This document shows, piece after piece, positions 2,783 to 64,000 of a stretch of DNA of 64,000 bases; position 1 is the stretch's first letter; each line of letters starts with the position of its first letter. Location of the stretch: positions 92,230,268 to 92,294,267 of the forward strand of contig CM026426.1 of NCBI GenBank assembly GCA_014871385.1. The letters run 5' to 3'. Source of the stretch: Ceratodon purpureus. Its lineage: Eukaryota; Streptophyta; Bryopsida; Pseudoditrichales; Ditrichaceae. A model generated the notes under the pieces. The model searched no databases and was not told the origin of the DNA. It saw only the letters and a program-made list of their open reading frames with translations. The translations under genes and the position numbers were made by a program.

Positions 2783-2859
2783 GGCATGGTGGAAACTATT
2801 TACCTCGATTACAACAAAGCTACAGCAACCAGATCGACAACAAGGAGCCGCAGCAAGCT

Positions 2860-5968: not shown

Positions 5969-6080
5969 TTGTACCAGTGAGAAAATAAAACTGTTAGCCA
6001 ATAACTGCAAGAAGCCGCCATTTCTACAAAGAATGCAAATACTCTACATGGCATACCAAGGAGTAGTAAGTGTGACTTAC

Positions 6081-14037: not shown

Positions 14038-14180
14038 CTCCATGTCAAAAACAAATTTCAATAAAAAATTGCTTATCCGTTGCAAGATACAAACGCATTC
14101 AGACGGAAGTATGTTATATTTGGTTCCATAACGGATTCAGCAATACTGGAAATCAATGCACATGCGCGACATTGACGTAC

Positions 14181-19167: not shown

Positions 19168-20394
19168 TCAGGACGCTGCACTACCATGGCCAGGTTGCGT
19201 TGGGCCCTGGGACGGCGGAATCGGCGGTGTCGGGACTCTGGAGGGAGGTGCCGACTGGCTTGGGTTCAAACGGGTTCGTAACGCATTCTTCCTGGAATTC
19301 CCCGGCGGTGTCGCGCTCTTCGGTGTGGCCCCTGAAGTTCCTGAAGTCGAAGCACCACTCGATAACAGGCATTGACGACATGCGAGCTCCTTCGGCTTGG
19401 GCCTCGGTCCTTTCTTATCCAGCCACTTCTTGGTAGCGGGGAGAATTTTGCATAACAATCCTTCTAAAGCGAGAATCTCTAGCCGCATTGTGTGGTAACC
19501 CTGTTCATAAACCTATCGTGCGTACTATTAGCATCCCTATTCCAGTTCGGAAATCCTGCCAATACATCGGAAGGTGTCGCAGGCAATCCTTGTGAATTCA
19601 CTGGATTTGGATTGTCCCATGGGACCAGTTGGCCCTTTGCACGGTCGTAGTAGTGTTTGCACATCTGGTAAAAGTATTGCCTGGTTTCATCATCGAAAGG
19701 CTTCCCTGGGTACAACAAATCGGCCGCTTGCATAATGGCCTTCGGCCTCTTTAGCAAGTCCGTAGGCTGAAATTGGTGCCACATCTCGAGCTGCGACATG
19801 TGTAGTTGCAAGACCCACTCCATTGGTTTATCCTTGATATCCCCGAGCTTGAAGTCCATGTCGAACTCTCTTGGATCGTACGCCCAGCCCCTCGGCATGA
19901 AATCCCTCAATCCGAATGTCAAATACAGGCGAGGATGGAGAGGGGCTGAGCAGATTGGACACGCACGTCTTCTTATCATCATCGGGATTAAACAATATGG
20001 GTGAAATCCATGTTTGCACGTCCCCAGTTGATAGCATCCCTCCGGGCCAAAAGGATTAAAGCACACGATGCAATTGGATCCGTCACTTGTCATTTCGTGC
20101 GGGACGGGCCAAGTCAGCGCCTCCAGCTGCTCTTTGGTCTTGCCCATCCCCCATTACTGATCCCGCTTCCATTGATGATCCACCTCAGCAACATTCTCCC
20201 ACTGAATGCTGCCTAAGCCGGACCGCATCTCCGGACTGTCCTCCCATTCCGGAGGGTACATCGTCTGTAAAGGCGGCCAAGAGGTGAGGAGCAAGTGTCG
20301 CAATCGTCCATTCTCCGTCCACTCTTTCTGAATTGCCTCGAATTCTTTCTCGTACTGAAGTTGCCCCGCTAATGCAAGGATAGCGATCATAACA
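19168..20394 (-). pseudogene. M4, 3' part: RING-like domain and C-terminal domain
   Basis: Continues the M4 frame after the MITE. An in-frame TAA at 20154 is followed in the same frame by a clear RING-like cluster: CIVC, then CKHGFHPYC, then CPIC. After it comes a domain of about 120 residues (FQPTDLLKRPKAIMQAADLL core) and a stop at 19479. A further frame, 19488-19168, is basic and proline-rich, and suggests a frameshift near the end. The RING match is stronger here than in M1-M3. Confidence 0.5.
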
Positions 20395-30299: not shown

Positions 30300-33242
30300 T
30301 CATGGACCACTGGACACTCTTTCCCCAGTCGTGCAACTAGATGCACGTGCCGCAACGTCCCGGATCGACGTAGATGGAACCCCTCTCCGCACGGGCCGGC
30401 TGCGTGAAGAAGACGCGGTCAAAACAACGGACTGGCTACCGTTGGTTACAGCAGATCCTACTGCTCGGCGTCTGCGTCCCCGGCCGGAGGTCTGCTGCGG
30501 AAGGATGTGACCCCTATTAACGGGGGTGGAGAGCAGGGCAGAAGCTTGCTGTTGCTGGTTTACAGCCATACTTCCGGACGTACTAGCAAGGCTTCGAGTT
30601 ATGGGACGGCGTATTTCCTCAGACGGGGTCTGAACTTCCTGATCGGCCATCCTCCTTCTCGAATCTTCCTCCGTTATTTCATCTCTCCGGCAATTGATAG
30701 GTGGTAAATCCTCCTGAAAAACTGTTCGAATCTCTCCCTCCATGTTCGCCAGGTTCTCGTCAAAATCCCTCTGGCCGAATGACAAAGAATCACTCCAAGG
30801 CTGCAAGAAGTCCGTGTCGACGATAGGTATCCTCCGGGCAAGACTACCATCTCCTCTGTCCGACTGTATTTCTGCTGCGTTGATCGGACTCAAAGCTCGA
30901 CGCTCACCTCCAGCATACGCCTGCCGTCCGACGCGATTATCCTGGCGGAGGATATCTTCAACCGCATCCCGGCGGTGTCCTTCGTCGAACATATTGTGGA
31001 AGAGCTCGGCAATCCGGACATCGCCACCGTCGTCACCGTTAGATCCTTCGTCTTCCGATCCGGATTCCTCAAAGTCGCTCTTGGGGGGATCGTCGTCCGC
31101 AAGTCCGACACCCCCCATGCCAAATCCGCCCTGTCCGACACCATCCATGCGGGCATCGTCCGCCACATTGTCCACCACATGGTCTCCTCCCTGTCCGAGT
31201 TCTTCCTCCTCGTCGTCCTCGTCCGGATCCTCGCCATCGAGGTCATCGTCGCAATGAACCTCCTCTAAGCCATACCACTGTGCCGGACGCGGAGCCCGGC
31301 GGTGACAAACGAGTCTACTGTTCGTGTAGATATACACGAGGTCCTCCGCTCGTACATGTTTCAATCTATTGCGCACCTTGCTGTGCACGTAGGAGTACAT
31401 GCTCCAGTGGCACTCACACGCAGACACGGAGCATACCTGTTCAAGTATACGTCTAGCTATTGTTTGGAGAGCCCGGGCTCCACCTCCCATTGCATCCCAC
31501 CATTCGTGGATAGTAGTGCCGTGCGCCTTGGGATCGGTTGAATCAGCAAATGCCCCCCGATTCTCGAGGAAATCCTAATACTGGACAAGGATCTGGACGT
31601 AATTCTCCTCGTTAGACGATAACTTGCGAAAAACCCGGTTTAAAATGATCCTCGACTCCTCGTGGTTATGAAGTGGCGCCCATCCACGTAGGGTCGGGTT
31701 CAGCATCGCACCTGCCCAATGAAGATCTGTCAACATCATAGCCCATCTGTGGTCGAATGCGAGCATGGCGTCTGCTGCCAGGTCCGCGTTCAATCTAAAC
31801 GGATGGGAGGAAAAATTGGGGATGTGGTTTTTCAAATCGTACATCGCCCTCCAAGCTAGGCCCATTGCAGGTGCCTTCCCATCAAAAAGGCGTAATGCCT
31901 TCACCACTAGGATGACCATGTATAAGAAGTTATGGCACGTGTTCCAGAAACCGTCCGCACGCACATACTTCCGCATCAGGCGGACCTTCTTCCCGGCTGA
32001 GCTGTTCACATCAAGATAGGTTGCTAAAATACCTGCAAACGCCGGATCGATGACCATTCTCTCAAATGCATTACGAAGTTCCACAAGACGCTCGATCATA
32101 ATGAAATTGGTCGCGAACCGCGTCTCAACGGGCAAACGGATGGTCAGATTGGGACACATCCTGCGAAATAAAGCCATTGATGAATGATGATTTCTAACCC
32201 ATAGACAAATAAGTCTCGCCTTTCGGACTATGTGCTTCACCCAATCCTCCTTCCCCCAATCTTCGAGTAACAGATCCAAGCAGTGTGCGGCACACCCTTG
32301 AACATAAATGTGAGGATATCGTGTCTAGAGCATCCGATTGGATCCAAGCATGTTCGGAGCATTGTCAGTGCAAACTTGGACAACATGTTGCGGTCCGACC
32401 CGATCCACAAACGGACGGATCTGAGAAGCGCTATAATCGCTATCTTTGTAATGTCCCGTCGTGTCTATGGTTCCAAGGAAAACGTCGCCCCTGGTCCCAC
32501 TCTGGATAACATTCAGAAGAGGACGACTCTGGACGTTGTCCCAACCGTCTAAACATATCGTAACACCGTATTTCTCTGTGGAATTGCCCGTGAGTTCCTT
32601 TACTTGTCTCACCATTTCCGCCTTTCTTGCGGTCAACAATTTTGTGCCAATAGCATTCATCGATGGCGGCAGGTATGCCGGGAAGCGTGATCGCACTGTT
32701 TCCCAAACAGAGTTAATGAAGGCAGGATGCTTAACAACGTTGAATGGGATATTGGCTTCGTAGAATGCCGTCGCCCACACTTTATCTAATCGAAGCTTCG
32801 TGGAAGCATTGAATCCTTGCACAATATTCAGTTGACGCATTTCCTTGGGTGGAGAACCCTGGGGTGCCATATCGGGCTCCTGCATAGCTGGCCCATCATT
32901 CCCGCGCGCCCCCTCGTTATCGGGAGCTTGAGGTATTACCGGATCTAGGACCCCGTCACCTCCCAAGCCAATGTCATGAACATCATTGGGCTCTCTTCTA
33001 GAAACTTCACCTCCGCAGTCTACGAACAACCTCCTCACCCGCGCACTCAGTAATCTGCAAATTTGTATACCGTAGTTACCTGGACCACCTAAAGGTCTGT
33101 ATCCAAAGTGGGCGAACATTCTATCCCGACAGTACACAATAGTCACATTACAAATTCTACACCTAACCTGTCTCTGAGGCCTCGCACCCACCACGCCCAA
33201 GTCTTGCCACCACTGATCCCAGGCCTCTACACTTCGCGGCAT
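30300..33242 (-). pseudogene. hAT-family transposase (BED finger, DUF659, dimerisation region)
   Basis: One frame from ATG (33242) to TGA (30300), about 980 codons, broken only by TAG at 32325 and 31575. The N terminus has a BED-like CRIC..H finger (residues about 20-45). The DUF659/RNase H part has CLDGWDN and VCTDNAPNMLGSN, which hold the catalytic aspartates. CAAHCLDLLLEDW follows the first TAG. The dimerisation region near 31500-31350 contains WSMYSYVHSKVRNRL. An acidic, then Arg/Ser-rich tail of about 300 residues follows. Both stops lie where glutamine is plausible. A TATA-like CCTTAAATAG lies at 33281-33290. It would bind element ends and cut DNA in the nucleus; it is one of the least decayed elements here. 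Confidence 0.75.
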
Positions 33243-33299
33243 GCCTGCGACAGAAAGCAAGAATCTGGAGGGTGAACGCACTATTTAAGGCGAGATGGA

Positions 33300-46188: not shown

Positions 46189-49100
46189 TCAAACTGGCCA
46201 ATTTCTTTGATTTTCGGAAAAGTTTAATTGCATTTCTAAGCCAAAAGTACTGGACACTCCTTCACCCGAAATTTTCTCTAATGTGGTTTGAGGAAACTGT
46301 TTGGCCTTCCTCTGCTCAATGAGACTTCTGGTGATCTCGAAAGCACTTATGGATGAAGGCACAATTGCAGTGGTCGAAGATGGCTTGGGGACGTCTGCAG
46401 TTGGAGAAGCGTTGGGTGTCTCCTTCCTTGGTGCGGAAGACTCCGCCCCAGTATCCTGTGAGGCCTGGAACTCCAAAATCAGAGGTTGCAATCGCCACCC
46501 TCTCCCTCTCTTTGGTGGAGGTGCACATGACTGATCCTGCAGGCCTTCAACCTCATCTGAACCATCTCCAAAATCCTCGACAATCCCTGATCCACCATCA
46601 AGTTGAAACTTCAGCTCCACTTCTAACTCTATAACGAAACCACGAATGCAATTGAGATACCAAAAACCAGCTTCAAGGTGCTGAGGTTTGAACCTCTTCA
46701 ACTGCTGAGGAGTATAGATCACTGGTCAGAGCCTTTCTGAATCCACACTGCGAAATACTTGGAGAGCTTCTGAAGGTCAATTGCACCTTTTTCAAGCAGC
46801 TCTCTCTTGAAGTACCTAATCAAGTTCAACCGTCATAGATCTGAATTATACACGTCGAATTGAATGAATGGAAAATGTAAATGGAATGTAAAGACGGAAA
46901 TAATAATCATCATAGCGGTATGTCACACGCTTCACAACGTCTGCAGCTCCCGGGAATTTGGACAAATCCGACTTCTTCTCAAAAGCCTTCTCTACGCGGG
47001 TACCAAGAAATGTGGGGAATGCCTTCTCCCCTAAGAGAATACGCCAACTCTTTACATATTCGTCGGGCTGCAAGACACCCGGGATAGACTTCCACTTGAT
47101 GACAAGGTTCTCAGCCTTACGAATACCTTCAAACTCACGGGAGACGGCTTCCTCCAGCTGCAACATGAAAGTGAAGTAGTAAAGGTTCAGAAATATATGC
47201 TACAAAGAAAGAAAATATACATAATTCAGTATAATGTTTGAAGGTACAACACCCCAGCCCAAAATGATGCCTTGTTCAACCAATGTTCGAGGTCCGCCTC
47301 TTTGAATTCTGGGGCAAAAATCTGTAAGAAATCTAGGAACTAGGTGAAGAGTTCCACCACCTCAGCCAACGCGCTTTGAATTTGGCATCCACAGATGCGG
47401 GGACAATCTTTTGAAGCTTGTCCACTGTCATCTCCGGTTTAGCAACGTCACTATAATGCCGATTGATTTGGGAATAGAATAGCACGTACAGGATTAGATG
47501 AATTATTTGAAATTGCAATTCTCATGAATGAACTAATGAAGAAGTGTTTAAAATCTTACCTCGGCAAGGAAGTCATCACCATTTTTGGGATTGGCAATGG
47601 CCAATAAGTTGGTGAAGTCCTTTTTCTTAATGGTGTCGACCATGTTGTTTGAAGCCGCAGTCATAACATCCCAAACACCTGCCGCAGTTTGCACTAGAAT
47701 GGGTGTTTTCTCCTTGTAGATCCTAGCTGCTTCGTCAGATGCAACCGCAATTTCTCGCTGTAAAATAGAGTCACAATTTAGTTACTTCTAAAAAAGGGCG
47801 AGTAATAAGTTTAAAGGAAATGTAAAATATAAATTAACAAGTGCTTACGCGGTAAAGAAATGCGATGAAGACTTTGGTTGGCAAGGTAAACCACGATGGA
47901 GTAGATGGTTTCTGATACAAACATATCTGATACTCCTCTGGATTAAGTAGATCCTTGAATTCTTCCAATTTCATCACACCGAAGGAGCGAATACGGAAAA
48001 GTTTTGCCGGAAGATTACTCTTCACATGATCATTTTCTGTAGACCGGTACGAACAGACGGTAGTTAATAATATGAATAAAGTTCAAGTTGAACCAGCTAC
48101 AAGTAGTATAAACAAAATAGCGGGAGCAAATTCTTACTAGTTCATGTCGTGCATAGCATGAAGAAGGTTTCCCACATGATCGGATGGGTCAAGAACAATG
48201 CAATGCACAGAGATGTGCCACGCTGGATCCTTGGTATGATGATTGTTGATATGCCTTAACCATGCAGCAAGGCGATGGTTACCTTCCCAGACGTAGAACA
48301 TCTTCCCAAAGAATTGCTTCCAATTGAAATCGCCTTCAATCTCCAATTCAAAAGCATCATTCACTTTTTACCAACACGGGCTCGAGTCGGCCTTAATCTC
48401 CTCAGTGACATCCGCTGTCTTCTCTTTGTGGTTGTATAAGGAAATGTACATAACCTGATCTCCATCTCTGTACCCCCTAACAAAATCTCGCTCCAAATGT
48501 TGAACTTCCATTTCTCCAACAGGTCGCACTTTTGCCATTGAGTGCATCCTACACAAGGGAACAAGGATACGGGACTTCCTCTTAGGGAGAATTCGAAGGC
48601 TGTTGATGACGCCTATGGAGTCGACCTTGTGCTCTTTCCGATGAACCAATTCACTGTCTACTGCATTCGTCAAATGAGTAGGACAAGATGGAGCCGGTAA
48701 CACATCCTGTGTTTGAGTTCCCTGTCAAAATTCTTGCAAGTTTAAACTAGAGTTGAAGGCAAGGAAATTAAAAATGAAATAAACAATTATGAAGACGAAG
48801 AAAACAACTTATTTTCATACTTAAACATCTCTTTTAATAACTCAATATTAATCACAAATAATAAGTAGCACAATAGAGCTACTATCTACGTGGTGCACGC
48901 ATATAATACTCCCTAGACTGTCTACAGTTCCGATGACGGCTTCTCCTCCAAAGTCGCCTGGTTTGTTGGACAGGGCATGGCTGTATTGCCGGAAGGGCGA
49001 AGACCACATGGGCTGGCCTCCTAACTCTAATCGGCGAGGAAAGAGAAGGTGGAGACATTGGCGGAGTTCCAATCCGAGGGGATGTGGGCATGTAGCCTGG

Positions 49101-51142
49101 CAAGGCGGGCTCATAGACTAGAGAGGTAACCTGGTAAACATGGGAGGTAGGCATGTACTGTGGAGAATGGACCTCGAAAGGTCCACTACCTAAACCTATA
49201 GGGTTTGCTAAATCACACCTACAGTTTGGCTAATCAAATGAATCAAAGAGGTCTGACACGTTGATCACTGTGATTGGGGAAGTGATGGAAAGTGGTGCAT
49301 CAAAACAAACCTAGAAAAAAAGAAACACAAACCAGGTCAATTCACCATTTAATATTATGTTGTCAAGGAATCTAATCTATAATAACTTTCAAAATTAAAA
49401 ATAAAGTACCTCAGTCTCTACCGGAGTCAGGCCATCAGTTTCGGTCCCTGTATTTATTGTGGTGTCCTCCTACAGCAAATTCAGAATGAACAAATTAGAA
49501 TTTATACAAAAATCCCAAAGATATATTCAGAAAGGAATGAGTGCAATATAAACCATGATCCCCTCTCCCATAACGAGCTCTCTCCCCTCCTCGCGGTCAT
49601 CATCCAATCCTCGCCATTCTAATAGTCCCCCTCTCCATTCTATTCCTCCACTTCCCCCACATCGGCTGCAAGCATGGCATCAGGCTCCGAATGGGGGGTG
49701 GGTCGCCCTCTCTCTTGCGGCCATGCCCATCCTCCCCGCGGCCTTGGTTGCCTCCTCCACCTCCAGTGGAACCGCCATGCCCTTCGTCCTCGCGGTCCGC
49801 ATCGAATCCTCCTCTTCCCCGAGCTGAAAACCCTCGACTGAGACTACCTCGACCCTATCCCTGTCCATAGCCGCGACGGCTTCCCCCTTATCCTCTTCCC
49901 CCCACTTTCCCTTTCCTCCCAGATCCACCAAGTCTGCCCATAAAGCATCCATAAACCCACCACCCAAAACCCTGCTATGTGAATCCTTACCTCCTCCCTT
50001 GCTGCGCCGCGGTTTGAGTCGCCCTCGTCAGTCTTCATCTCGCGGTCGCCGCGGTCGTCTCTACCTGCGTCCATCCTCTCCAGAGTTGCCTCCACCTCCA
50101 TAGCCGCGGGTGCAAGTTGCAATGTTGCTTGAGTTGATACCCTCCCTCTCCCATGTCGTCCCCTACCCCTCTCTTGACCACCTACTTTCCCCCCAATAGC
50201 GGGCCCTCGGTTCGATACCTCATCCTCTCCATAGTCATGGTCGTCTCCGGGGCCTAAAGTTGGACCTAGTGAATGGACATCCTACGCACTCGTCTCATTA
50301 GGACTTCCAGGGTCTCCTCTACCTGCCCGCCTAGCATCGTGCCCCAAAGCCATCGCCTCCTCACCTTCACACGTCTCCATAATTTCTCGCCTTGCTCTAC
50401 GAGCCAAGGCTCTCAATGTCTCAGTTTCGGAATCCTCGCTGGGATCAACTAGTGCTCTCCTCGCACCTTTTACCTCTTGTTCAACCTTAAACCAATTGGC
50501 TCTCTTCACAAAGATTGAAGACGGTGACGAGTATGACAACTCAGAGTCCATTTACACTAAACAGCACAATGGCTAATGCGGCATTACATTCTAAACCAGT
50601 AAAAAATTATTCACGCAGCAAAGACACTGAATTGATTTTATAATGTTATAGCACGCAAGAAAACATGACTCACATCAACCATACTTTGAACAAGTATGAA
50701 GGAAATTTACTTCATCGGAGTTAGAGTGGCCACCCGGTTGTGAATTAGTCTCTCTTGTCGATGAGTCCTTAAAACCGAAAGAAGGTTGTGGTGTCTCCAG
50801 ATTCCGACTTGAATTGAACCCTAGTCCTTACGTCATCTCGTTCTTTTTTTCCGCGCTACTTATTACCTCATGCTCCTGAGGCTCTACCTCTAAAGCCTCA
50901 TCTCTTATCTCCAGTATGGACTCTAGTAAGAGTTTATGAATGCTACAAAATTTAAGAGCCAAAGGCAGCCCAGCTCCCCGGGCCTTCAGTGGTGCACTCA
51001 AAAGGTTACCTTTTGTGTCTACCCTCCTCCAAGACGCTCTCCTCTTTCTCGCTCTCCTATTCGTAAAGTCTGTGGAATAAGGTTTCCTTCTCCGTTTAGA
51101 AGTGACATAAGTGGAGGGGGTAGACCCTCCACTATCCTTCAT
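46189..51142 (-). pseudogene. copy A of the ParB-like gene, decayed and lacking the methyltransferase end
   Basis: Exon-by-exon match to copy B: N terminus MKDSGGSTPSTYVT (51142), acidic exon (50551-49980), short exon (near 49540-49410), CTD-like exon (49320-48895), ParB-like exon (48720-48137; conserved YVWEGNHRLAAWLRH and WHISVHCIVLD), then homologues of copy B exons 6-10 down to 46189. Lesions include TAA after EMT near 50833, TAG in the CTD-like exon, TAA before KVNDAF, a lost donor (CGCTATG for CGGTATG) near 46912 and a frameshift near 46725. Homology to copy B stops near 46310, before the methyltransferase exons. The neighbouring transposon starts 3' of that point. Confidence 0.6.
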
Positions 51143-51210: not shown

Positions 51211-51974
51211 CTCCAAAATCAATCCATTCCTCAACAACTCCTCATGAAAAGATAATAGTGCACATTGACTAGAATCTTCCACTTGCTAGACTCTGAGGAA
51301 CTAAAAATAATTTCATTTTGAATTAAAGTTGATGTACAAATAAATAAAATTAAAATTAATTCAAACATCAATAAAAACAAAACTATAATTGAAATGAAGA
51401 CAAAGGATAACCCATCACAGATGGCCAGGCCAAAATTCCAGAATGAAAGACGGCTTAAACTAATCTTGGACATGCTCTTTTAAAAATTAAATCAGACAAC
51501 AATCTAAACTACCACTAAAATGAGTTAATATAACAAGACTTAAATTCTCATTTCGGCGCAAAAGATAACTTACACTGTTACTGAGGGTCTAAATAACATC
51601 TGTTACCCCTAAATCTCATTCATTTTGTATAATGCTCCCAGAAGCAGCATTAAAAAAGATGAAGCAAAGGACGACATGTTCTAATCTTATAAAACTTCTT
51701 AACAAATAGAATCTGCTCCACAATTCAAGTAATTAAAGTACTAATCTATAAAAACTTACCTCATATACTTAGCCTTGCACAAAGCAGCATTCTAATAAGT
51801 CAGCACCGTCTCTCTTTAATCATACATCCGTTATCTAACAGAATGGATTTTTATTTAGTCGTTCAGACTGTCATTCCAACTTGAATAAAATGATCAACAA
51901 CGATGCATCATTCCTCTCACTTTGCTTTCGCAACACCCCTTCGATAGTACATTCACTCCTCTCCTCTTTCTACT

Positions 51975-54143
51975 ATAGCTGCGTTGCCTGCAAACATGGG
52001 GAAGGTCTGTCTATATGCCCAAAGCATCGGAATCCATCTAAGGTTTTGCGTAGATGACGATGGTCTAGCTACAGTGTCCTCTCTTTGCCTGAGTCTTAGA
52101 TTCCATTTTCGTGAGGATACCAATAGTATTGAGGAGGACATCTTTGATGACGTTACTGCCGAGGTTACCCTCGGCCAACTTTCACCAAGAGATGAGAACA
52201 ATATGTTGTAGTGGAGACTTCTCCCTGAATCCTATAGAGTCTACGGTCTCACTCATTCTCTGATGGCTACGTCCACTGAGATCCTCACCCCCCGTCGCTC
52301 TTCTACATGCACAGTTTAGACTCCCTTACATCCTGATGTCAAGGTCAAAATCGAGCTTGGAACCGAGACCTCAGATGTCATAACACCTCATCGGGAGCTA
52401 CCTGCTACAGCCCGAGGATGCACCATCGAGGAAGCTAACGATGGAGGAGCTGGTTCCTCTTCTGGATCGATGCAAAGACATGGCGTCACCAAACATCCGC
52501 AACAAAGTCGCGACATTCAAAAAAATCACAAGGTACGGAATCATGGAAGGTATCACCAAGCTCCGTGGAAACAGTCTCTCGGCCTTTGTCCAAGAGAATA
52601 AGTTTCCTAGTCAGGGAGCTATGCGTCTCAAAGTCTTCGTCTTCAAGATGTCGGAGGTTGGGCCGGAAAGTGGTGTCGACTTGGTCAGTCGAATGCAACC
52701 TGGCGGAGGTCAGGAAAACACCAGGATCATTTTTGACCATGTAAAACGCGTGAAAAAGTGGTCGACGATGGCCTGCCATGTGTACGACGCCACTTACTGC
52801 CGCGTGATGACAATCGCCAGTTGCGACATGCAGTCCGAGGACACGGAGGCCCATCTTGTCTTCTGGAAAAACCTTAACTTCGTCATGGAGAACAATGGTG
52901 TTGCAGCGCCAAACTTCAAGGGGTTCATGGCCGATAACGCACAAGCGAATTGGAATGCAATGCAAATTCCATACGGCAATGGCAACAAAGAAGACCAAAT
53001 AGAGGACTAGGAGAGGTTGTGCTTGTTCCAGTGGACACAGAACATGGTCCAGTATACGCAAAAGCACTTTCTCAAAGAACTCTGAGAACAGCACAAGAAG
53101 ATGTGTAATCAGTACAGGAAAGCGACTAGCATGGCGGAGGCGGACACTCTGTATCACGCGTTGCGAGCTTGCTGGGTATCCACCGGGGTTGTGGGCGAGA
53201 GCGGACTTATCAAGCTCGATCAGTGGCTGTCATTCTAGCACTACCGCTTTCGCCAGTGGGGGGAATTTATGTCCACGGTATAATTTCTCTACTATGTTTT
53301 GATTTTTTTTGATACTGGTTTCCTAGCCCTAACCTACAAAACTCTAATCGGTGAATCTAACGGCACCTGTTGTCTAAAATGCAGAAATTTACGGAAGAAG
53401 AACTCACAGAGATGCCGACCTATAACCTCGCAAAAACAGTTCATAACAAGTGGCTCCAAGCTTCACGAAACAACGAGAACGACCTCTACGTTGCTACCGT
53501 GGACGATTTCGTTCGGGCTTTTCTACAGGTTGTTAACTACTACCAGTTCCTCAAAGGTGACGTATGCGGAACAGGACCATCGAAGAAGGAACAGAGGCTC
53601 CGGATGGCGGAACGCAACGCGAAGAAATGGGGAAATCCTAAACTACTCAAAGACCCCATGCTCGATATGCCAGGAGCGGATGAGTTCTGCACCCGTCAGC
53701 CTATCATGCTTGGAGCGGAAGTGTTTAGTTCACAGAAGCGAAAAGCCGACGTCCCCATCGGAGCTGACGAGGAGTCTCATTGCCCGGACAAGACAAACTT
53801 CTCTCGCCCAAGAGGCCCAAGACGTGCCGTCAGGGCTCGCCCTATGAAGATGCCCGTCATTGTAGAAGACGACTCTAAACACGACGCCGAGGTAGAAGGT
53901 ACCCAATCTCCTGCCGAAGAAGTTGATTCCCCTTTACCTTCACCTGTGAACAAGGGCGGCATTCGTCATGTCAACGCGGTTGAAGAAACGAAGGTCAACG
54001 TGAAGGAGTGGCACATTTCGAGACTTCACAAACTTTCTGCGAAGTGCTGCCGAGCCCAAAGAGCTGAAACAAAAAAGAAGTGCACTGAGAGAATCGTCAG
54101 GGGGCCTCATTGCACAGCTGCCCCAACCTACAGTGGGCTTTAG
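51975..54143 (+). pseudogene. copy A MULE-like transposase gene
   Basis: Plus-strand gene, divergent from the ParB-like gene. The start codon seen in copy B (ATG 63572) is ATA here (51975). A beta-rich N-terminal domain (51984-52320) has TAG at 52209 and 52317, then a frame change leads into 52441-53277. That part has the MULE-type layout: VYDATY, then FMADNAQANW, then CLFQWTQNM, with TAG 53008, TGA near 53083 and TAG 53235. An intron at 53278-53384 (GT..AG, phase 0) joins it to 53385-54143, with a NLAKTVHNKWLQAS motif and a basic tail ending in TAG. The D, D and C/W positions fit a MULE catalytic core; the E is not clear. Confidence 0.55.
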
Positions 54144-54151
54144 ACTAACTA

Positions 54152-54322
54152 TCGCGGAAGGTCAGGTCTTACATCCGATTGAACGTCAACATTTGTTGTC
54201 AAAGGACGCCCTTGGCTGTTGGCCATCACCTCTTCTTTGTCCTCCACCTCAACATATGGTTGAAATGGGCCAACATCGTTAGCGAGTGAAACAACAATAT
54301 CTCTAACGTCTTCCATAACCGC
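54152..54322 (-). CDS. small ORF, unknown, convergent with the transposase gene
   Basis: 56 codons from MEDVRDIVVSLANDVGPFQP to TAG at 54152, just past the end of the plus-strand gene. No known motif. It may be a first exon or chance. Confidence 0.2.
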
Positions 54323-54984
54323 TGTCCGCCACTACGGAAAAGAGCTTCACAAAACACCTACACAAAAGAGGAAGAGACATTCGATAATCTAATCCTAAAT
54401 ATCCCTAAAGAAGATGTTTGGTGGGGAAAGTTTGTATGTGAGCGGAGAGCGGAGAGCACAGAATGGAGAGCACAGAAAGGACAATTACCCAAATTTTCAA
54501 AAGCAAAGTAGACCCTATAACCGTGGAAAATTACAAAAGTAAGGCATGAGTTTGTTACTTTTTTTAAGAAAAGAGTATATTATCGTGAAATTCAGGGTTA
54601 TCGCTGGTAATAATTTCTTACGTTTATTTATTGAGGTACAAATTAGGGCTGATGTTTTGATGACGTCACGCATACAATCCTTTAGATTTGGTCCCTTATT
54701 GGATATAGATACGAGTATTCCAGCATGATGTTTTTAGATAATATAGATAATTCTAGGAATAAGAAAACTCAAAACCAGCAAAAAAGAAATGGTCTTAAAA
54801 CTTCCTGGAATATTTCAGAGTTTGTGTACAATAATGGAGTAGGTGAAACCAAGATGTACACCAAGTCAGAGTGCTTGTCTTCGTCGAAGAATTCTCCGTC
54901 TTTACATAAGACCATTCTTAGCTTAAGTGTCAAGCAACAATCTATATAAACCTCAGCAGACGTCCTTGAAGTTGTATTAGTTCA

Positions 54985-55548
54985 ATGATTTATGTAGAAC
55001 TTAAGCTTGTACTTGCTAGGAAGTTGTTTGAAGGTATCGGAGATTCATTTGAGGTCGTTGTCTGTGAAACGATTTTACAGGATTTGCTTAAGCGGATGGC
55101 GGATGGGCCTAACCCCTGGGATCATATAGATAGTAGTGCAACGCAGGGTTGGACTCTTCCGACGGTAATCACGTTTGAAGACGTCGAGAACGCTCGTGCT
55201 ATGTCGAAGAGGTGGAACCGTGAGATTGACAACAGTCCTGAATACGCATGCCTTCGGCTAGCGAGGTGGGATTACTTATCGTACAAGGGTCGCCATTGGA
55301 GTCCAAAGGACGAATACAAAGTTAATTGGTTCAACATCAACTGGAGTGTTTTTAGAAGTTCGTGGAAACTTGCAACTCCAATTTACAACGAGAGGTTAGA
55401 GACAGCGTCCCTTGGAGAACTTAGTTGCGTTGAGTTAGATCAGTTGAGGACATTGCTATTGGCCAATGGGAATCAGGTCTTGGATGTGCCGGAAGGAGAG
55501 AAAATTTCTCCAAGAGATGGTATCCGGATCTCTCTCAAGAATAGATAA
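54985..55548 (+). CDS. unknown 187-residue protein
   Basis: Starts MIYVELKLVLARKLFEG and ends TAA at 55546. It is Trp- and Asp-rich, with a regular, globular-looking sequence (WDHIDSSATQGWTLPTVITF, ARWDYLSYKGRHWSPKDEY). It lies between copies A and B on the same strand as the transposase gene. An upstream first exon is possible. No family is recognised. Confidence 0.4.
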   Translation: MIYVELKLVLARKLFEGIGDSFEVVVCETILQDLLKRMADGPNPWDHIDSSATQGWTLPTVITFEDVENARAMSKRWNREIDNSPEYACLRLARWDYLSYKGRHWSPKDEYKVNWFNINWSVFRSSWKLATPIYNERLETASLGELSCVELDQLRTLLLANGNQVLDVPEGEKISPRDGIRISLKNR

Positions 55549-55824
55549 CATGGCTATGGTTAAAGGTGAGAGTTTGAATGATTAAGAATTAAATTACAGC
55601 GCAATGTAAATTATAAGCATTTCTTTTGTAACATTTCATTCTTCAAGTTATATTTTGAGCATTACAGCTGTGACATTTCATCCTTTACATACACGGAAAC
55701 GAATTGGAAATGAGAATCATATCTACTTTAGGGTGTTTGGAGTAGAGTAGACGAAAGATTATGCAATCAATTCCAATTAAATCAAATCGAATCAGATGAA
55801 AACAATAAAAGACCGAAGCCTCCT

Positions 55825-58800
55825 TCAAATTCTAAACATGCTACAATCGCTACTTCCACTCTCAGAACTAGATGACTCTGAATCTCCTTCTACAGCCTCT
55901 GCATTGACGAATAGAAGGGCCCTGGGATCAAAAGAAGTTGGTCAACTAGAAACATATGTAAGGGCTCCAAATTGAAACGCCTGTGCTAAGCCCTCTGCAT
56001 AGTCCGGAAGTATAAAAGGCTGAATCGGGCTGGAATGAGGACGCCACGATGGAGTGGACACTGCTCTTGGCCCACGTGGCGGTGTTGCTGAAACTACTCT
56101 GCAGTAGAGAACCGATTGTGGTTAGATCGAGTATGTAGAGCTACAAAGAAAAGCAATGCTTGGATAATTTGAACAAAGAATAGAAGACTTACACCACTTA
56201 TGAGGTCTTGCTCTCTTTGGAGGCGCTTCGTCGGTGCTGCCGGCCTAGGATGTTTAGGAGGGCCCATGGCGGATGGTCTAGCCATGTACGGTTTGAGAAT
56301 GGCGTTGAATATGGCTTCGTCATCCTCAAAAGCTAGAATGTGACGACCAATAGTCTGGCAAGCCTTGACGGAGGCCCCTGAAACTCGGAGAGTAACGAAG
56401 AAATGAGAAACTGTGGAAACAATGATAGTAATAACTAAGTAGACATATGTATGAAAAGTTACCTAATCCGGCATTCCAGTTGAGGACTATGTCTCCGGGC
56501 TTTGAAAGTTCTCCAATTATGCTCTGCATCATCTCATGTGTTTTCTCCCTTGGCCCTCTCCACGGAATGTCCCCATTCATTTGTTGCGACTCCGCATCGG
56601 TCCAGTTAAAAATGGCATCACTCTCGGTAATGTTGAGGACCCCATGTATCAACTGGGATTTCTTTGTCTGGAAGGAGAAATTACTGCCACTACGAATGTA
56701 GACGCAAATCCAGAACCGCATAGTCTGCAGTCAAGGACAAGTAGTGAGTAAAATTAAGTAGAAGGGTTATCAGTAAGTAAAGAGAAGGAAATGTTTAGAT
56801 GAAATTACCAAGTTCTCGGGGTTCGTAGGAGAAGTCAGGCCGAGTACATTGACGCCCCACCAGTCCTTGAAAAGCACGAAGTCACCATCCTCAGCTTCTT
56901 CCTGGATATCCTTAGCCAGCTTCTGATGAGTGTTGTAGATGAGGCAGAGGGCACCATCTTTCTGCAGGTATTGATCTGCAAAATGGAAGATGTCGTACAC
57001 ATAACCCTTGTAGCGAGAGTTCCAAGGCGGAATACTCGCGGAGGAACGGAAACGGAAGGGACGGGAAGATTCTCAGGGATGTCCGCAATGATCAAGTCGA
57101 CTCCCAGATTGTCCTCTTGTTTGCATCCGTCCGGAACTCTGTTTTGACGGCATGCTCCAAACTAGAGGAAACAAGAAAGCAGAGTTAGAAACTATAAAAC
57201 GAGTAGAGGTGGATGTATCCAAGAAATGTCAAATTATCGGAACATACCTTGCGAATGAAGTCTTGAGTCTTGATCCAATCTGGGTCGCCTCCACCTTTTC
57301 TCTCCAGTCTCTTATTTCCCCGCAACACTGAATCCACAGATGAGTTGAAGATCCAAACCTGTGTGGAAATCAAAGCTCCAGCGGAAGAAATTGTTGGAGG
57401 ATAGAGTTTGGCCTTCCTCTGCTCAATGAGACTTCTGGAGATCTCAGAAGCACTAATGGATGAAGGCGCATTCGCTGTGGTTGAAGTTGATATTGGGATG
57501 TCTGCAGTTGGAGAAGCGTTGGGTGTCTCCTTCCCTGGTGCGGAAGACTCCGCACCAATATCCTGTGAGCCCAAGGACTTCGATCCCAGAGTTCGCAGTC
57601 GCCACGCTCTCCCTCTCTTCGGTGGAGGTGCAGATGATTGATCCTCATGTGCTTCGTCATCCTCTGAAGCTTTGGTGGAGTCTTCGACCACCGGCGCCCG
57701 GGTATTGAGTACTGATTTCACCTCGGCCTCAGAATCAACTGTAAAACCACGGAGGCAATCTAGATACCAACATCCTGCCTCCAAGTGGGGGGCTTTGTAC
57801 CTCTTCAACTCCTGAGGAGAGTAGATACACTGGTCCGAGCCTCTCGTGATCCATGAAGTAAAGTACTTCGGGATATGTTGGACAGTGATGGCGCCTTTTG
57901 GAAGAAGCTCTCTCTTGAAGTACCTAGTGAGGGCCAATTTTGAATGACTTAGTATGTGGGAGAGAGGAACGGCAGGAGTCAAAATGCACATATGTTTGAG
58001 TAAAGAATCATACCGGCAGGTGACTCGCTTGACAACATCTTCCGTTCCAGGGAATTTCGTGAAAATCGTCTTCTTATCAAAAGTCTTCTTAGCCTTGGAT
58101 CCAAGGAATGCCGGGAATGCTCTGTCCCAAAGGAGAATATGCCAACTCTTCACGTAATCGCCTGGTCGCTGAACATCAGGGGATGCATTCCAATTGATGT
58201 CCAGCTCCTCAGCCTTACACATGTCCTCGAACTCTTGGATGACCGCTTCTTCCAACTACAAGAGAAAGACAGCAGAATTAGACTACGACAATAAAAGTCG
58301 TAAAATGATAACAACATTTTCTATTTTGTAAATCAAGAAGCATACCCCTGCCCAGAATGAAGCCCTGTTTAGCCAACGGTCGAGGTCAGCTTCCTTGAAC
58401 TCTGGTGGTGGGAATCTATAAGACTGCCTTGAAGTCGGGGAGGAGTTCCACCACCTCAACCAACGAGCTTTGTACTTGGGTTCAACTGCCGCCGGCACAA
58501 TCTTCTGCAGCTTGTCCAATGTCATCTCAGGTTTGTTGACATCGCTGAAGTGGCGGTTAATCTGCAATTAGAAATGAACAGTTAGCACTAGGTTATTAGG
58601 AGTACAATGACATGGAAACAAATTAGCTAAAGTATTAGTGGATAACGAGTCACCTCAACAAGGAAGTCGTCACCATTTTTGGGATTCGCTATTGCCAAGT
58701 ACTTGGTGAAGTCCTTTTTCTTGATGGCATCAATGAAGTTGTTTGATGCCGTCGTCATTGCATCCCAAACTCCAGACCCAGATTGATCTTCTTTTGGCGT

Positions 58801-61800
58801 GTTCTCCATGTATGCTCTTGCTGCCTGATCCAAGGCGACCGCAATCTCCCTCTGTACAAAGAGAATGTATTATAATCAATGTATAAACTACTTGAAATGC
58901 ATTAGTTAAAGAAAGTAACATAACGAATGTATTAGGGGATTCATGGAAAAAAAATTCTTACTCGGTATAGGAACGCAATGAAAACCTTCGTTGTCAAGGT
59001 GAACCATCTATCCTTTGCGTGTTTGTTCTGCACACAGATTTCAAACTCTTCTGGACTTAGAAGATCTTTGAATTCTTCTAACTTCATGACACCGAAAGAG
59101 CGGATACGGAATAACTTCGCTGGAAGATTACTCTTCACATGGTCATTCTCAGTAGACCTGTGGACAGAAAAAACTGTTTAGAAAACATTTCATAAAAGAA
59201 GAATGACCCAAAATCAAATTTGAGAAATTGTGCAACAAAAATTCTTACCAGTTGATGTCGTGCATGGCATGGAGAAGATTGCCCACTTGGCCGTGGGGGT
59301 CCAATATGATGCAATGCACGGAGATGTGCCAAGCTGGGTCGTCGGCATGATGCTTGTTGATGTGTCGTAACCAAGCTGAAAGGCGATGATTACCTTCCCA
59401 TACAAAAAACATTTTGCCACTGAATTGATTGAGGTCATCGTCTCCTTGGAGGTCGGCTTCGAAGGCTTCGTTAGCCTCGCGCCAGCATGGGCTCCACTTG
59501 GCCTTCACTTCCTCCGTGACATCCATTGACATCTCTTCAGTGTTGAACATGGAAATGTACATCACGCGGTCCCCATCTCTGTAACCCTTTACAAACTCCC
59601 TCTCCAGATGTTGCACGCCCATTTCGCCAACCGGTTTGACTTTTGCCATTGCGACCATTCTACACAATGGGACAAGCAGGCGAGACTTCCTCAAGGGCTG
59701 AATACGAACGCCATTGATGACGTTGATCGAGTCAACTTTATGCTGTGTTCGATGAAGCAATTCTCCTTGTACAGCGTCTTTCAAATCCAGAGGCTTTGAT
59801 GATGATGGCAACACGTCCTCTGTTTGAGTAAACTCAGGTACCTGCCATCAGCCATAGAAATGAACAATCAAACTTTACAGCGCAGATTCTGAAAAATAGA
59901 ATTTACCAGTCACTTAGAGATTTTCTCATAAATGAAAGGGTAAAACAACAAGACAACTGGAATTTAATCCAAGACACTAAGCATCAAGACCGTGCCACTC
60001 TACGAGGAGCCCTTCCATAGTACTGTCTAGCCTCTCTACTATTCCAATGATGGCGCCTTGTCCAAAACCGCCTCGTTTGACGGCAAGCGCTGGGCAAGAT
60101 TGCCGGAAGGGCAAAGACTACATGGGCAGGCCTCCTCAACACCAAAGGTGAAGTTGGGGGATTTGGCGAAGACGGCGGTGTACCAAGACGTGGCGAGGTG
60201 GGCATGTACACCGGAGAGGTGGGCTCATAAACAGGCGATGTAGGCATGTATTGGGGTGACTGGACCTCGAAAGGTCCAGAATCTAAACCTAAAGGAATGG
60301 TTAAATCACAGGTACAAAGGCGCTCATCCTCTGGGTCTGACAGGTCTAAAAGGTTGATCATAGAGACAGGAGAATTGACAGACATGTCGGGAGTATCAGA
60401 GCCTACCTGAATGTACAAAACATATGAGAAAGTTAGAAGGCATGTATATTTGAATGATCTTTCTATTCCTTTACTTAAATAATGAAAGATAATTTGAGCA
60501 TGTGAAATGTAAACATTATTACAGCAATAAGAATACCTCACTCTCCTCAAGCCCCTTGCTTTCACTCTCGGTGCCCATGTTATCCTGTGAAGTACCCTGA
60601 AAATGAAAAGAAATAAAATATGGTCAATTATTAAAATCATTTGATGTCTCTTTTTTGAGTATTGAAACTATTATCAAAGAAGTAGAGAAGTTCTCGTACA
60701 AGGAGAAGTTGCATTCATTAAAGAGGAATCATGTTCAATGATGAATGAAAACAAATTAAAGTTGAAAATTAAAAAACGGACAAGGATAGGGAGACGGACA
60801 GGGACTAGGAATGTGAGGGAGAGAGAGAGGGGCAGGGACAGGGAGAGACAGGGAGGGCTAGGGAGATGGACAAGGAGAGACTGCGCGGGACATGGATGTG
60901 GACAGGGAGATGAACAAGGAGTAACGATTAAAAAAACAAATTGCATGGTTCATTGGGCGCTGGCACTCGTGTTTGCTCCGAAAGCAGACACGGTGCCGGC
61001 TTGGTGCAAATGACTTAAAAAAAAAAAAGCCCGCGGCCTCAGTGGAGGGAGATCCCTCCTCAGCCATCGAGCTCACATTGGGCGCTGGCACTCGTGTCTG
61101 CTCCGAAAGCAGACACGGTGCCGGCTTGGTGCAAATGGCTTAATAAATTAAAACAAGGCCGCGGCCTCATTGGAGGGAGATCCCTCCTCAGCCATTGACC
61201 TTGCATTGGGCGCTGGCACTGCGCCTTGGTGCAAATGGCAAGAATAAAAACAACAAGGCCGCGGCCTCATTGGAGGGAGATCCCTCCTCAGCCATTAACC
61301 TTGCACAGGGATAGGGAGACGGACAGGGATAGGGAGACGGGTAGGGACTAGGAATGTGAGGGAGAGAGAGGGGCAGGGACAGGGAGAGACTGGGAGGAAT
61401 AGGGAGATGGACAAAGAGAGACCGCGGGGGACAAGGATGTGGACAGGGAGATGAACAAGGAGTAACGATTAAAAAAAAATTCAAGGCCGCGGCCTCACTG
61501 GAGGGAGATCCCTCCTCTGCCCCTCCTCAGCCATCGAGCTCGCATTGGCGCTGGCAACGTAACGAATCTTACAGTGACGAATTTGTACACCCTCGAAACC
61601 AAATTCTTAACACTCCCCTGAAATTTCTAAGCCGAATCCACAACAATTTCGAACACCCAACATTCCCCAACATCCAAAACCAAATCCCCAACAATTTCCG
61701 ATACCCACACTCTGCATTTCTCCCCAACACCTGCAAATCCCCAACACCAGCAAATCCCCAACATCCTCCAACGAACCCAACATTCCGAACAGTCCCCAAC

Positions 61801-62971
61801 AATCCCGAATCCCAACAATTCAAACAAACCCACCAATCACAAATTTCCATCAAATCCGAGCAAGCAGCATATCCATTAGCAACCAAGACGCACCCAAGAT
61901 ACAACAAGTACGCACCGACATCAAAATTAATCTAGATACCGACATTAGAACTTTCATACCTGATGGTCGTCGTTGTCGTCGTCCTCGAGCTGGTTCTCCA
62001 GCTGCTCCTCCGGCTGCTCCTCTTCGAACTGCTCTTGGACCTGCTCCTCGAGGTGCTCCTCTAGCTGCTCGATTCCCTGCGCGACATTTCCCTGCGCTCA
62101 CGGAACTACCTCCAGATCTCCCTCTTGACCGCGTTCTGCAATGTTTGCCTCTCTCTCCGCCATGGCAACTCCTCCTTCACCTGCCTCCATTATCCCTTGC
62201 CTCGCCCGCCTTGCTTTGACTCTCAGATGCTCAATTTCGATACAAGCTCCAACAACAGGGACTCAACGCTTATCTCCCACCCCTCTTACCCACTTGTTGC
62301 TCTACACAGGAATAGAATTAATTTGAATCTAGGCTCGCATAGAGGGCCGCGGCCCCTACCATTACGTCATTCAGTTAACGTTACACCATTGAAGCAAACA
62401 ATTCTAAAACACTGCTGAGAATATAATAAATTTCATTTTTTATCGGGTATACTTTAATTCGGGACACTACAATAAAACATTTAATTCACGATACCCTGGT
62501 TCAAGACGGTTGAGGAAGACTTACCTCATCAGAATTGAAATATGGATCTGATTGAGAGTGTGGCCCGCTTGAAGAAGAGTCATTAAATTTGATTGAAGGC
62601 TGCGGTGACTCTTCTCTTTGACTACAATTAAACTCTAATTCATCCGTCATCTCGTCATGCGCAACCCCACTTAAGAATACGTCTTGATCCTCCTCCTGAA
62701 CCTCGAGGACGGTGTCCTCTAAAAATTCGTGCTTTACCTCCACTATAGAGTCTAGGATGACTTTACGAATGCTACAAAACTTCAAGGCAACAGGCAAACC
62801 CGCTCCTCTCCTCTTCACAGGTGCACTCAAGTGATCAGCTTTCAAATCTACCTTCTTATGTGATGCTCTTCTCTTTCTCGCTCTCCTATTCGTAAAATTT
62901 GTCTTACATGGTTTCCTTCTCGGTTTAGGAGTGACATAAGTGGAGGGAGTAGACCCTCCACTATCCTTCAT
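55825..62971 (-). CDS. copy B: ParB-like and class-beta methyltransferase gene, multi-exon
   Basis: About 14 exons with good GT..AG sites: 62971-62525, about 62330-61960, 60596-60537, 60406-59985 (ends in a stop), 59841-59249, 59160-58963, about 58855-58654, about 58562-58346, about 58256-58018, 57923-57248, 57162-56809, 56724-56463, 56377-56193, about 56101-55825. Skipping the stop-bearing fourth exon keeps phase 0 and gives about 1,300 codons. Domains: basic N terminus; acidic exon; ParB-like domain (exon 5); unknown middle; class-beta methyltransferase (exons 11-13) with DLIIADIPEN (motif IV position), GALCLIYN, PREKTHEMM (motif X) and KPGDIVLNWNAGLG (motif I); then a Ser/Glu-rich tail. 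Faults: TGA in exon 2 and in the last exon, and a one-base frame change in exon 11. It may be recently dead, or some faults may be sequencing errors. Confidence 0.6.
56193..57162 (-). other. exons encoding the class-beta amino-methyltransferase domain
   Basis: Three exons hold, in order, motif IV (ADIPE in place of the usual D/N-P-P-Y/F/W), a RYKGYVYDIFHFADQYL helix and GALCLIYN strand, motif X (PREKTHEMMQSII), the SAM-binding motif I (PGDIVLNWNAGLG) and GRHILAFEDDEAIF. The order IV-X-I defines the beta class, which includes N4-cytosine and N6-adenine DNA methyltransferases. The altered motif IV casts doubt on catalysis. The frame before PPWNSRYKGYVYD is shifted by one base relative to motif IV. 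Confidence 0.6.
59249..59841 (-). other. exon encoding a ParB-like domain
   Basis: About 197 codons. The layout fits the ParB/Srx fold: PLCRMVAMAKVKPVGEMGVQ (strand and helix), then a GYRDGDRVMYIS strand, then FFVWEGNHRLSAWLRH matching the G-x-H/R-R-x-x-A core, then WHISVHCIILD. Bacterial and phage proteins often fuse ParB to a beta-class DNA methyltransferase, which supports the call because a methyltransferase domain follows in the same gene. Copy A has the same exon with one TAA. Confidence 0.5.
59985..60406 (-). other. CTD-like exon: YxPTSPx heptads, alternative last exon
   Basis: An exon of about 140 codons with three consecutive heptads, YMPTSPV, YEPTSPV, YMPTSPR, then SPNPPTSP, close to the RNA polymerase II CTD consensus YSPTSPS. 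It ends ..YYGRAPRR plus a few residues and a stop; copy A also ends at ..RAPRR and a stop. The exons on both sides fit each other in phase 0, so this one is probably an alternative terminal exon giving a short protein without ParB or methyltransferase. Confidence 0.5.
60940..61560. repeat. structured tandem repeats in an intron of copy B
   Basis: Three to four degenerate units of about 100-130 bp containing CATTGGGCGCTGGCACT, CCGCGGCCTCATTGGAGG and GAGATCCCTCCTCAGCCAT. Two short hairpins recur: GTGTCTGCT-CCGAA-AGCAGACAC and GGAGGGA-GA-TCCCTCC. GGGACAGGGAGA-type purine repeats flank them (60780-60920 and 61305-61460). Copy A has no counterpart at this position. Confidence 0.65.
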
Positions 62972-63031
62972 GTGTCTAAGTAACCTAATGACCCTCCTCA
63001 CAATAAAGGACACCTTATAACTTATGCCCTG

Positions 63032-63039
63032 CTTATATA
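63032..63039 (-). promoter_or_regulatory. TATA box of copy B ParB-methyltransferase gene
   Basis: TATATAAG about 60 bp upstream of ATG 62971, in the same context as in copy A. Confidence 0.6.
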
Positions 63040-63481
63040 CTCATCATTCCTAACAACTGCTGAACAACTCCTCCTACCATCATGACAGCGATCACTGACA
63101 TATACCATTAAGATTGGTCTCTGATATTGTAGAACTAAATATAAATAAATAATGAATTAAAGTTGATGTGCAAATGAATATAAATAAAATTGATCGATTC
63201 ATCAATACAATCTCCACTAAAATAGATAAGGTGACAAAGGGTCACCTATCACAGAGGGCCTGCCTATTAGTCCCAAAACAAAAGGCGGCTAGTGCTAATC
63301 CTATACATGCTCTCTTGAACAAAAAATCAAACCACGATCTAAAGTGGTACTGACATGAGTTAATATAAGTACTCTTAAATTCTCATTACGGCGCCAGTGG
63401 TAACTGACTCTGTTACTTACAATCTAACTAACTTCCGTTACTCGTGATTCAGATTCATTTCCTAAGATGCAACTACAACTG

Positions 63482-63488
63482 TATATAA
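63482..63488 (+). promoter_or_regulatory. TATA box of copy B transposase gene
   Basis: TATATAA about 85 bp upstream of ATG 63572. With the minus-strand box at 63032 it defines a divergent promoter of about 450 bp that is partly conserved in copy A (51200-51970). Confidence 0.5.
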
Positions 63489-63571
63489 TCATTGTACTCG
63501 ACCACATCAGTCTCTCATTCTTGTGCACCTTCACTCGATTAGTGTCATATTCCCCCACTCTACGTTTCACT

Positions 63572-64000
63572 ATGGCGTACGCAGCTCCTCGGGAAGTCCA
63601 AGGCACAGTCGTCCTTTATGCTCACGGCCTTGGAATCCCTCTCTCTTTTCAGACCAGTGCCGATGGTATGGCTAGCCTGTCCTCCCAGCACCTAAGTATG
63701 AGATTCACTTTTAGAGAGGATACAGTCAGGGTTGAGGAGGAGATTTTTGACGAGATAACAACTGAGGTCACTCACACTCTAGGTCAGTTGTCCGAGAGGG
63801 GTGACGATGGAATTCTGTACGGCCACTTGTATCCAGGTACATATAGAGTTTATGGACTTACCAATTCGCAGATGTAGACGTCTACAGAGATTCTTACTCC
63901 TCGTCAATCCTCCACTTGCACTGTTCAAAATCCGCTTCCTCGTGACGTGAAGGTCAAGGTAGAGTCTGGCGTGGATGCTACTCTTCAAACTCCGGTCATC
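63572..64000 (+). pseudogene. copy B MULE-like transposase gene, 5' part, cut by the window end
   Basis: Starts MAYAAPREVQGTVVLYAHGLG. The first 100 residues form the same beta-rich domain as in copy A (conserved LSMRFTFREDT / LSLRFHFREDT and LGQLS). TAG at 63875 sits where copy A has GCT; the frame then continues open (TSTEILTPRQSSTCTV) to the edge. The catalytic part would lie beyond 64000. Confidence 0.5.

Follow-up and report, generated by a model that had tools for sequence, protein, structure and literature searches.

The window analysed here is a stretch of 64,000 nucleotides from the moss Ceratodon purpureus (contig CM026426.1, positions 92,230,268 to 92,294,267 of the forward strand). 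From 62971 to approximately 55823, its minus strand carries an intron-rich gene in which a ParB-like exon is followed by exons of methyltransferase type. The gene sits inside a large Mutator-like DNA transposon of about 14.5 kb and is divergent from a transposase-like gene. The contig bearing the window (C6) comprises 110.5 Mb. The Ceratodon U and V chromosomes are each larger than 100 Mb (PMC8000587), and the window is taken to be located on a sex chromosome, either U or V.

Structure of the gene and its transposon

Hand splicing at GT-AG sites yielded fourteen minus-strand pieces. When each exon was compared by tblastn with six other copies (L031 to L036), which span subfamilies approximately 97% and 75% identical in E4, the same exons and GT-AG sites recurred with some exceptions. 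This agrees with the initial annotation, which had proposed a spliced, intron-rich eukaryotic gene. The E8 donor is lost in L032 and the E2 acceptor in L033, the E14 acceptor is altered in L034, and L031 has an altered end of E5 and lacks E10 to E14. With tblastn, E2 was not found in L034 to L036, and E1 was not found in the stretches examined of L034 and L036. The features are as follows (TIR, terminal inverted repeat; CTD, C-terminal domain; SAM, S-adenosylmethionine):

54423 to 64000, running past the window end, no strand: upper transposon copy; TIR match at the gene side (GGGGAAAGTTTGTATGTGAGCGGAG); homologous to the complete copy on C2
63572 to 64000, plus strand: start of the divergent transposase-like gene, continuing in L037 (236-1801; SWIM-like CxC-CxH part 3046-3405), by sequence inspection
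62525 to 62971, minus strand: E1, first coding exon (MKDSGGSTPS...); GT donor shared with L031-L033 and L035; no Pfam domain
60776 to 61538, no strand: noncoding repeats in intron 1; tandem arrays at the same place in L032 (224 bp) and L033 (212 bp)
60537 to 60596, minus strand: E2, 20 codons, phase 0 at both ends; present in L031-L033
59984 to 60406, minus strand: E3, RNA polymerase II CTD-like YMPTSPVYEPTSP, basic C-terminus; terminal stop in all 5 copies compared
59249 to 59841, minus strand: E4, predicted ParB/sulfiredoxin-fold exon (FVWEGNHRLSAW) holding WEGNHRLSAW; recurrence in copies, structure model
58962 to 59157, minus strand: E5; recurrence in copies
58654 to 58851, minus strand: E6; recurrence in copies
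58346 to 58561, minus strand: E7; recurrence in copies
58014 to 58255, minus strand: E8; recurrence in copies
57248 to 57923, minus strand: E9 (CWYLDC..., followed by a low-complexity linker); recurrence in copies
56809 to 57161, minus strand: E10/E11, methyltransferase motif IV (DLIIADIPENLPVP); in the window copy, frame shifted by one base
56463 to 56724, minus strand: E12, carrying motif X (WRGPREK) and the first part of motif I (in the window copy NWNAGLG)
56193 to 56377, minus strand: E13, which completes the SAM-site half (GRHILAFEDDEAIF); tentative at the 3' end, where two donors are possible
55823 to 56087, minus strand: E14, acidic Ser-rich C-terminal tail, start tentative; conserved frame with a stop in the window copy, open in the 4 other copies compared

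Of the exon layout proposed initially, the WEGNHRLSAW exon at 59841-59249 stands, whereas E10 and E11 form a single exon in all other copies containing it (5). As E10/E11 is one base out of frame and a stop interrupts the conserved E14 frame, the window copy is a pseudogene. In L034, E4 to E13 are open for about 965 codons, and 508 residues separate E4 from the methyltransferase exons. In L032 and L033, E9 is interrupted by a stop.

The other end of the window element is located near L037:5049. The copy on C2 has imperfect TIRs that agree at 45 of 56 nt and enclose 14,415 bp, and it is flanked on both sides by the 9-bp duplication ATGATTAAG; it is the only copy with two matching ends read. For a copy on C5, homology ends before the second element end. 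The genome searched amounts to 362.5 Mb in 151 contigs, and similarity searches scored the best 140-150 of 1647-3277 candidates per search. The TIR end occurs at 877 genome sites with at most 2 mismatches (backward control: 0). Exact patterns coding for VWEGNH[RS][LF] and D[IV]PE[NDSG][LF]PVP were found at 641 and 774 sites, respectively; neither signature is due to chance, since the reversed patterns gave 0 and 0. The second pattern requires Glu, and therefore copies without this residue are not countable by it. On C1, an inward TIR end lies within 6 kb of 36 of the 59 D[IV]PE[NDSG][LF]PVP sites among the matches listed. The earlier view of an intron-rich, transposon-borne gene in a plant lineage is thus borne out: The carrier is a Mutator-like element (MULE) with hundreds of copies in the moss. 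By eye, the N-terminal region of its transposase-like gene is rich in Cys and His, and a D...CxxH segment as well as a SWIM-like CxC-CxH part can be recognised, the last with a weak Pfam match (expectation value, E, 0.13; 12.2 bits vs. a cut-off of 19.6).

The methyltransferase domain and the ParB-like exon

The joined L034 exons match PF01555 (N6_N4_Mtase) with 41.1 bits (cut-off 26.7, E 2.5e-10) and DNA methyltransferases of the PHROG collection with 4.5e-11 at best. The joined E11 to E13 of the window copy reach 20.9 bits with PF01555, which is under the cut-off of 26.7. In a profile-profile comparison with 5 bacterial or phage enzymes, hhalign returned a probability of 98.2 over 191 columns and a score of 95.5, while the maximum of 20 decoys was 20.7. 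By these alignments, the 3' exons encode a permuted beta-class methyltransferase domain. The motif order that had been read from the letters is confirmed by the hhalign match: IV lies at 57161-56809, X and I follow at 56724-56463 and 56377-56193.

The reading of motif IV itself had to be revised: The gene has DIPE in place of DPPY. Aligned, though weakly, with chains of CcrM and DpnA, DLIIADIPENLPV falls opposite DLIFADPPYNLQL. Among 26 moss copies (27 rows, less one for the window exon, which is split and fills two), motif IV is DIPEN in 18, DVPEN in 2, DIPED in 2, DIPKN in 2, HIPEN in 1 and NIPEN in 1. The aromatic place is occupied by Glu in 24 copies, by Lys in 2 and by an aromatic residue in none; the 4 copies with altered Asp or Glu all carry a stop in E12. 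Two alignment searches of databases yielded 42 and 179 matches, 120 of the latter being listed, and therefore the gene is not a one-locus oddity. From the 42 matches, 22 were opened. Five of these stop short of motif IV, and the remaining 17, between 28 and 93% identical to the query, all have Glu in the aromatic place; among the 17, identity to the query reaches 70-93% in three, and Ceratodon itself is the source of one. None of the 26 moss copies and none of the 17 relatives covering the motif has the catalytic [DNS]PP[YFW], and this speaks against the proposed entry of a prokaryotic-type DNA mark into a plant lineage. In the bdelloid rotifer N4CMT, replacement of SPPY by APPA (Ser and Tyr to Ala) is reported to abolish activity (PMC8885841). 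Since motif IV is DIPE and this replacement kills N4CMT activity, conventional writing of N4-methylcytosine (4mC) or N6-methyladenine (6mA) is doubtful.

The SAM-site half is largely kept, including GxG and an acidic residue after beta-2. Motif I reads D-W-[NK]-A-G-T(G) in 21 of 26 copies, EWSxGTG in 2, NWNAGLG in the window copy and DWNART in 1, and was not reached in 1; compared with FxGxG, the GxG is retained and the Phe lost. One relative, P0011, is the Ceratodon purpureus hypothetical protein KC19_N032100. Its two exons are matched at 98% and 99% identity on C45, and its methyltransferase subfamily forms its own many-copy set in the genome. The four phage matches opened (H1 to H4, from 101 records) are stand-alone methyltransferases. 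A phage methyltransferase from a human faecal sample (L091, 1684-2499), has DIPYN as motif IV and is intermediate between DPPY and the moss DIPE.

For E4, an AlphaFold model (predicted local distance difference test 87) matches ParB/sulfiredoxin folds, and the exon would, by this predicted structure, belong to the ParB/sulfiredoxin fold superfamily. Both folds suggested initially were thus recovered, E4 from its model and the methyltransferase at 98% in the profile-profile comparison. The claim of a ParB-type core stands for the fold but not for the sequence. Sequence similarity of E4 to DUF1015/SerK, sulfiredoxin and the ParB N-domain is at the edge of detection, and no family profile scored above cut-off; the DGHHR motif of DUF1015 aligns with the EGNHR of E4. 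PF02195 (ParB_N) gave no match in 26 and 62 aligned E4 members and none genome-wide at E<=10. Canonical ParB membership was discarded, since in addition to this lack of PF02195 matches, hhalign to 30 ParB domains scores below decoys; the ParB profile used 27 of 32 ParB frames, the rest being without the trimming motif. Kinship with GmrSD_N/DUF262 (15 sequences) was likewise rejected: The score was 19.0 vs. 18.2 for the best of 15 decoys, and the core scored 18.9 vs. 20.1 (40 decoys). The E4 alignments A1 and A3 exclude copies with stops or partial cover, and stops occur in 13 of 67 E4 matches. Two weak matches among the 62 members, one to DUF1015 (E 0.048) and one to CB_ParB_C (E 0.25), were not relied on. 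For E5 to E9, no Pfam match above cut-off was found, including the ParB helix-turn-helix and C-terminal dimerisation domains, and phage relatives of E4 were absent at E<=10.

Bacterial or viral carriers of the family were considered and dropped: Viral contigs searched with A1, A3 and A4 and genome contigs searched with A4 yielded two loci only, which cover residues 176 to approximately 225 alone. These scans of bacterial genomes and viral contigs, which work with short peptide patterns, detected no relative covering methyltransferase motif IV. The joined L034 product, used as a single-protein query, found nothing among 7992 candidates; this is a limit of the method, because the alignment searches did find relatives. 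In the literature covered, which includes few subscription papers and no preprints, no report of a ParB-methyltransferase gene in a MULE or a moss was found.

Linkage, selection and possible roles

On C1, 40 of 44 VWEGNH[RS][LF] sites among the matches listed have D[IV]PE[NDSG][LF]PVP 2280-2325 bp downstream on the same strand, and 4 are without it. The proposed joining of ParB-like and methyltransferase parts therefore holds for order, strand and spacing, but with about 500 residues in between the gene is no compact phage-style fusion. E4 is under strong purifying selection: The ratio of nonsynonymous to synonymous substitutions (dN/dS) is 0.08-0.16 for 15 of the 16 pairs in which dS was finite, and synonymous sites are near or past saturation. 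In the methyltransferase exon dN/dS amounts to 0.16-0.68 (28 pairs), indicating weaker selection than on E4. Because it is under purifying selection, the protein probably does something. L033 and L036 are 75-80% alike in E4 to E9, and 87-95% alike in exons and introns from the E9-E10 intron on; L032 and L034 are 90-98% alike in exons and introns from the same intron on. This sharp rise in identity shows that the 3' block, methyltransferase included, was swapped between subfamilies much later than the subfamilies split.

On balance, the gene is probably an accessory second gene of the large high-copy Mutator-like transposon, and its product an element-encoded, DNA-engaging protein that aids the transposon. 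From E4 on, the product would comprise approximately 965 residues: an N-terminal ParB/sulfiredoxin fold of the type with a pocket for nucleoside triphosphates (NTP), a family-specific middle of about 500 residues and a C-terminal beta-class methyltransferase fold with D-[IV]-P-E-N. An NTP-controlled ParB-like module might thus act together with a methyltransferase fold that binds DNA and SAM instead of performing ordinary amino-methylation. We infer NTP binding, SAM binding, the loss of canonical catalysis and the role in the transposon. The target could be the element's own noncoding DNA, and the outcome either anti-silencing, as with VANC of VANDAL elements, or assistance to transposition; by analogy, such an anti-silencing or helper role would fit best. 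A transposon helper protein is more likely than a new DNA-marking enzyme.

Several observations weigh against this interpretation. The transposase-like gene has no Pfam match to the MULE transposase domain. A target duplication was seen in one copy (C2) only, and the flanks of the window copy do not match each other. The phage DIPYN suggests that the Pro-to-Ile change alone is tolerated. Splicing of all exons into one mRNA is deduced from conservation. E3 closes with a stop in 5 of 5 copies compared (window, L032, L033, L034 and L036), and consequently E1 to E3 cannot simply continue into E4. They may represent a short separate gene or an alternative form; E1-E2-E4 splicing would be possible, because the E2 donor and the E4 acceptor are both phase 0. 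The E13-E14 junction is tentative: The E13 donor GTGTAAG is mismatched to the E14 frame in some copies, and the adjacent GTAAGT may be the true donor. An alternative E14 frame was dropped because of a stop in L034.

That the transposon marks its own DNA with a working DNA amino-methyltransferase (for 6mA or 4mC) of unusual motif IV is unlikely. The well-kept SAM-site half, the alignment of the whole domain to bacterial and phage beta enzymes and conservation across subfamilies argue for it. So does the retention in most copies of three DPPYN residues (Asp, one Pro and the Asn after it), and so does DIPYN in a phage relative. The invariable absence of an aromatic residue and the inactive N4CMT mutant argue against it. 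Quite improbable is methylation of RNA, protein or a free nucleotide rather than a flipped DNA base, with the conserved Glu as a new catalytic residue. DIPENLPVP and WRGPREK are kept more tightly than expected for a decayed enzyme, in relatives down to approximately 30% identity, but there is no clue to a substrate and a conserved binding-only domain could look alike. A further, unlikely reading goes beyond the helper protein: an undescribed, apparently eukaryotic clade of beta-class methyltransferase folds with fixed D-[IV]-P-E-N-L-P-V-P and W-R-G-x-R-E-K and an NTP-switch ParB fold, borne by plant DNA transposons, whose chemistry would be new, either a novel modification (of a nucleobase or otherwise) or clamping gated by NTP, and would control the silencing of the element itself.

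The ParB-like and methyltransferase parts might also be separate transcripts from two genes on one strand. The E3 stop is already suggestive of this for E1 to E3, exchange between subfamilies affected the 3' block, starting near the E9-E10 intron, and 19 of 59 methyltransferase sites on C1 (among the matches listed) have no ParB signature at the expected spacing. The intron phases of E4 to E13, though, fit one frame that is open in L034, the spacing is constant in the 40 of 44 cases mentioned, and P0017 and P0020 contain, by eye, E9-like sequence in frame with the methyltransferase. Two genes are very unlikely. It is hardly credible that the gene is a passively captured host or bacterial fragment, functionless for the element: MULEs do capture gene fragments in Pack-MULE style (PMC6431247), but hundreds of copies, many of them open, and a dN/dS well below 1 between old subfamilies contradict it.

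Fusions of ParB with N6_N4 methyltransferases are enriched in prophages, according to a survey (PMC12704722). Like the moss gene, the bacterial and phage fusions L127, L128 and L130 have a ParB fold followed by motifs IV, X and I. They contain a short linker, a ParB motif of GHTR/GHGR type and DPPY, whereas the moss gene is spliced and has about 500 residues between the domains, EGNHR and DIPE. Among bryophytes, Marchantia DN4MT1 is a 4mC-type enzyme. Like the moss gene, the rotifer N4CMT is a eukaryotic permuted N6_N4 methyltransferase of bacterial origin, but it carries SPPY and a chromodomain and is described to serve transposon silencing, while the moss gene is transposon-borne and has DIPE (PMC8885841). 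Fungal DNA transposons with TET/JBP carry a DNA-modification gene that has moved from one transposon lineage to another, probably as a means of evading silencing; these elements encode a dioxygenase instead of a methyltransferase fold and belong to fungi and to other superfamilies (PMC12730594).

VANDALs are MULEs. VANC binds motifs that form tandem repeats, also in introns, and induces loss of methylation (PMC5735166). Common to both systems are a plant transposon as carrier, an additional gene, and introns with noncoding tandem repeats. In VANDALs the repeats are binding targets and the function of VANC was tested experimentally (PMC5735166); for the moss element, the intron 1 tandem repeats are the only such feature seen and the function is putative, with no sequence relation to VANC shown. 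Transposons that bring along DNA-modification genes form an established, though small, class. Here, the carrier is a plant DNA transposon that has reached hundreds of copies in a single moss, and its protein combines two folds otherwise met in mobile elements of prokaryotes with a fixed deviation from the catalytic motif. This opens the testable question whether methyltransferase folds are recruited by elements to write marks or to occupy DNA.

Neighbouring copies and side observations

A second copy of the gene and its partner are located upstream in the window:

46285 to 51142, minus strand: second copy of the gene; E1 and E3-E9 present with stops, truncated in E9, methyltransferase exons not found
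51948 to 54155, plus strand: transposase-like gene of the second copy, without the SWIM-like part

Window 52382-54154 and the transposase segment L037:909-2681 are 99.7% identical, while the rest of both elements is about 55-80% alike; this may reflect a recent conversion or a nested duplication. An E4 copy with a 100% identical protein is found on the opposite strand 30 kb onward (G000:C6:92319400-92319993). In E3 (60406-59987, minus strand), the RNA polymerase II CTD-like YMPTSPVYEPTSPVYMPTSP occurs in a transposon exon, where the Rpb1 repeat has an E of 0.01, below cut-off. The large intron 1 contains GC-rich palindromic repeats, GGCCGCGGCC and GGAGGGAGATCCCTCC, at 60951-61538. Between the methyltransferase gene and the TIR, an open frame of 187 aa (amino acids; MIYVELKL...) extends over 54970-55548 on the plus strand. 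It is not found at the equivalent place in L032 to L036, where the sequence is different, and its single Pfam match, to DUF6314, is weak (E 0.064). Elsewhere in the window, hAT-like frames were noticed by eye at 30300-33284 (minus strand), and recurring RING-like Cys/His frames, also seen by eye, lie among transposon-like genes at 1163-2857, 5833-6540, 14137-14760 and 19479-20153 (minus strand).

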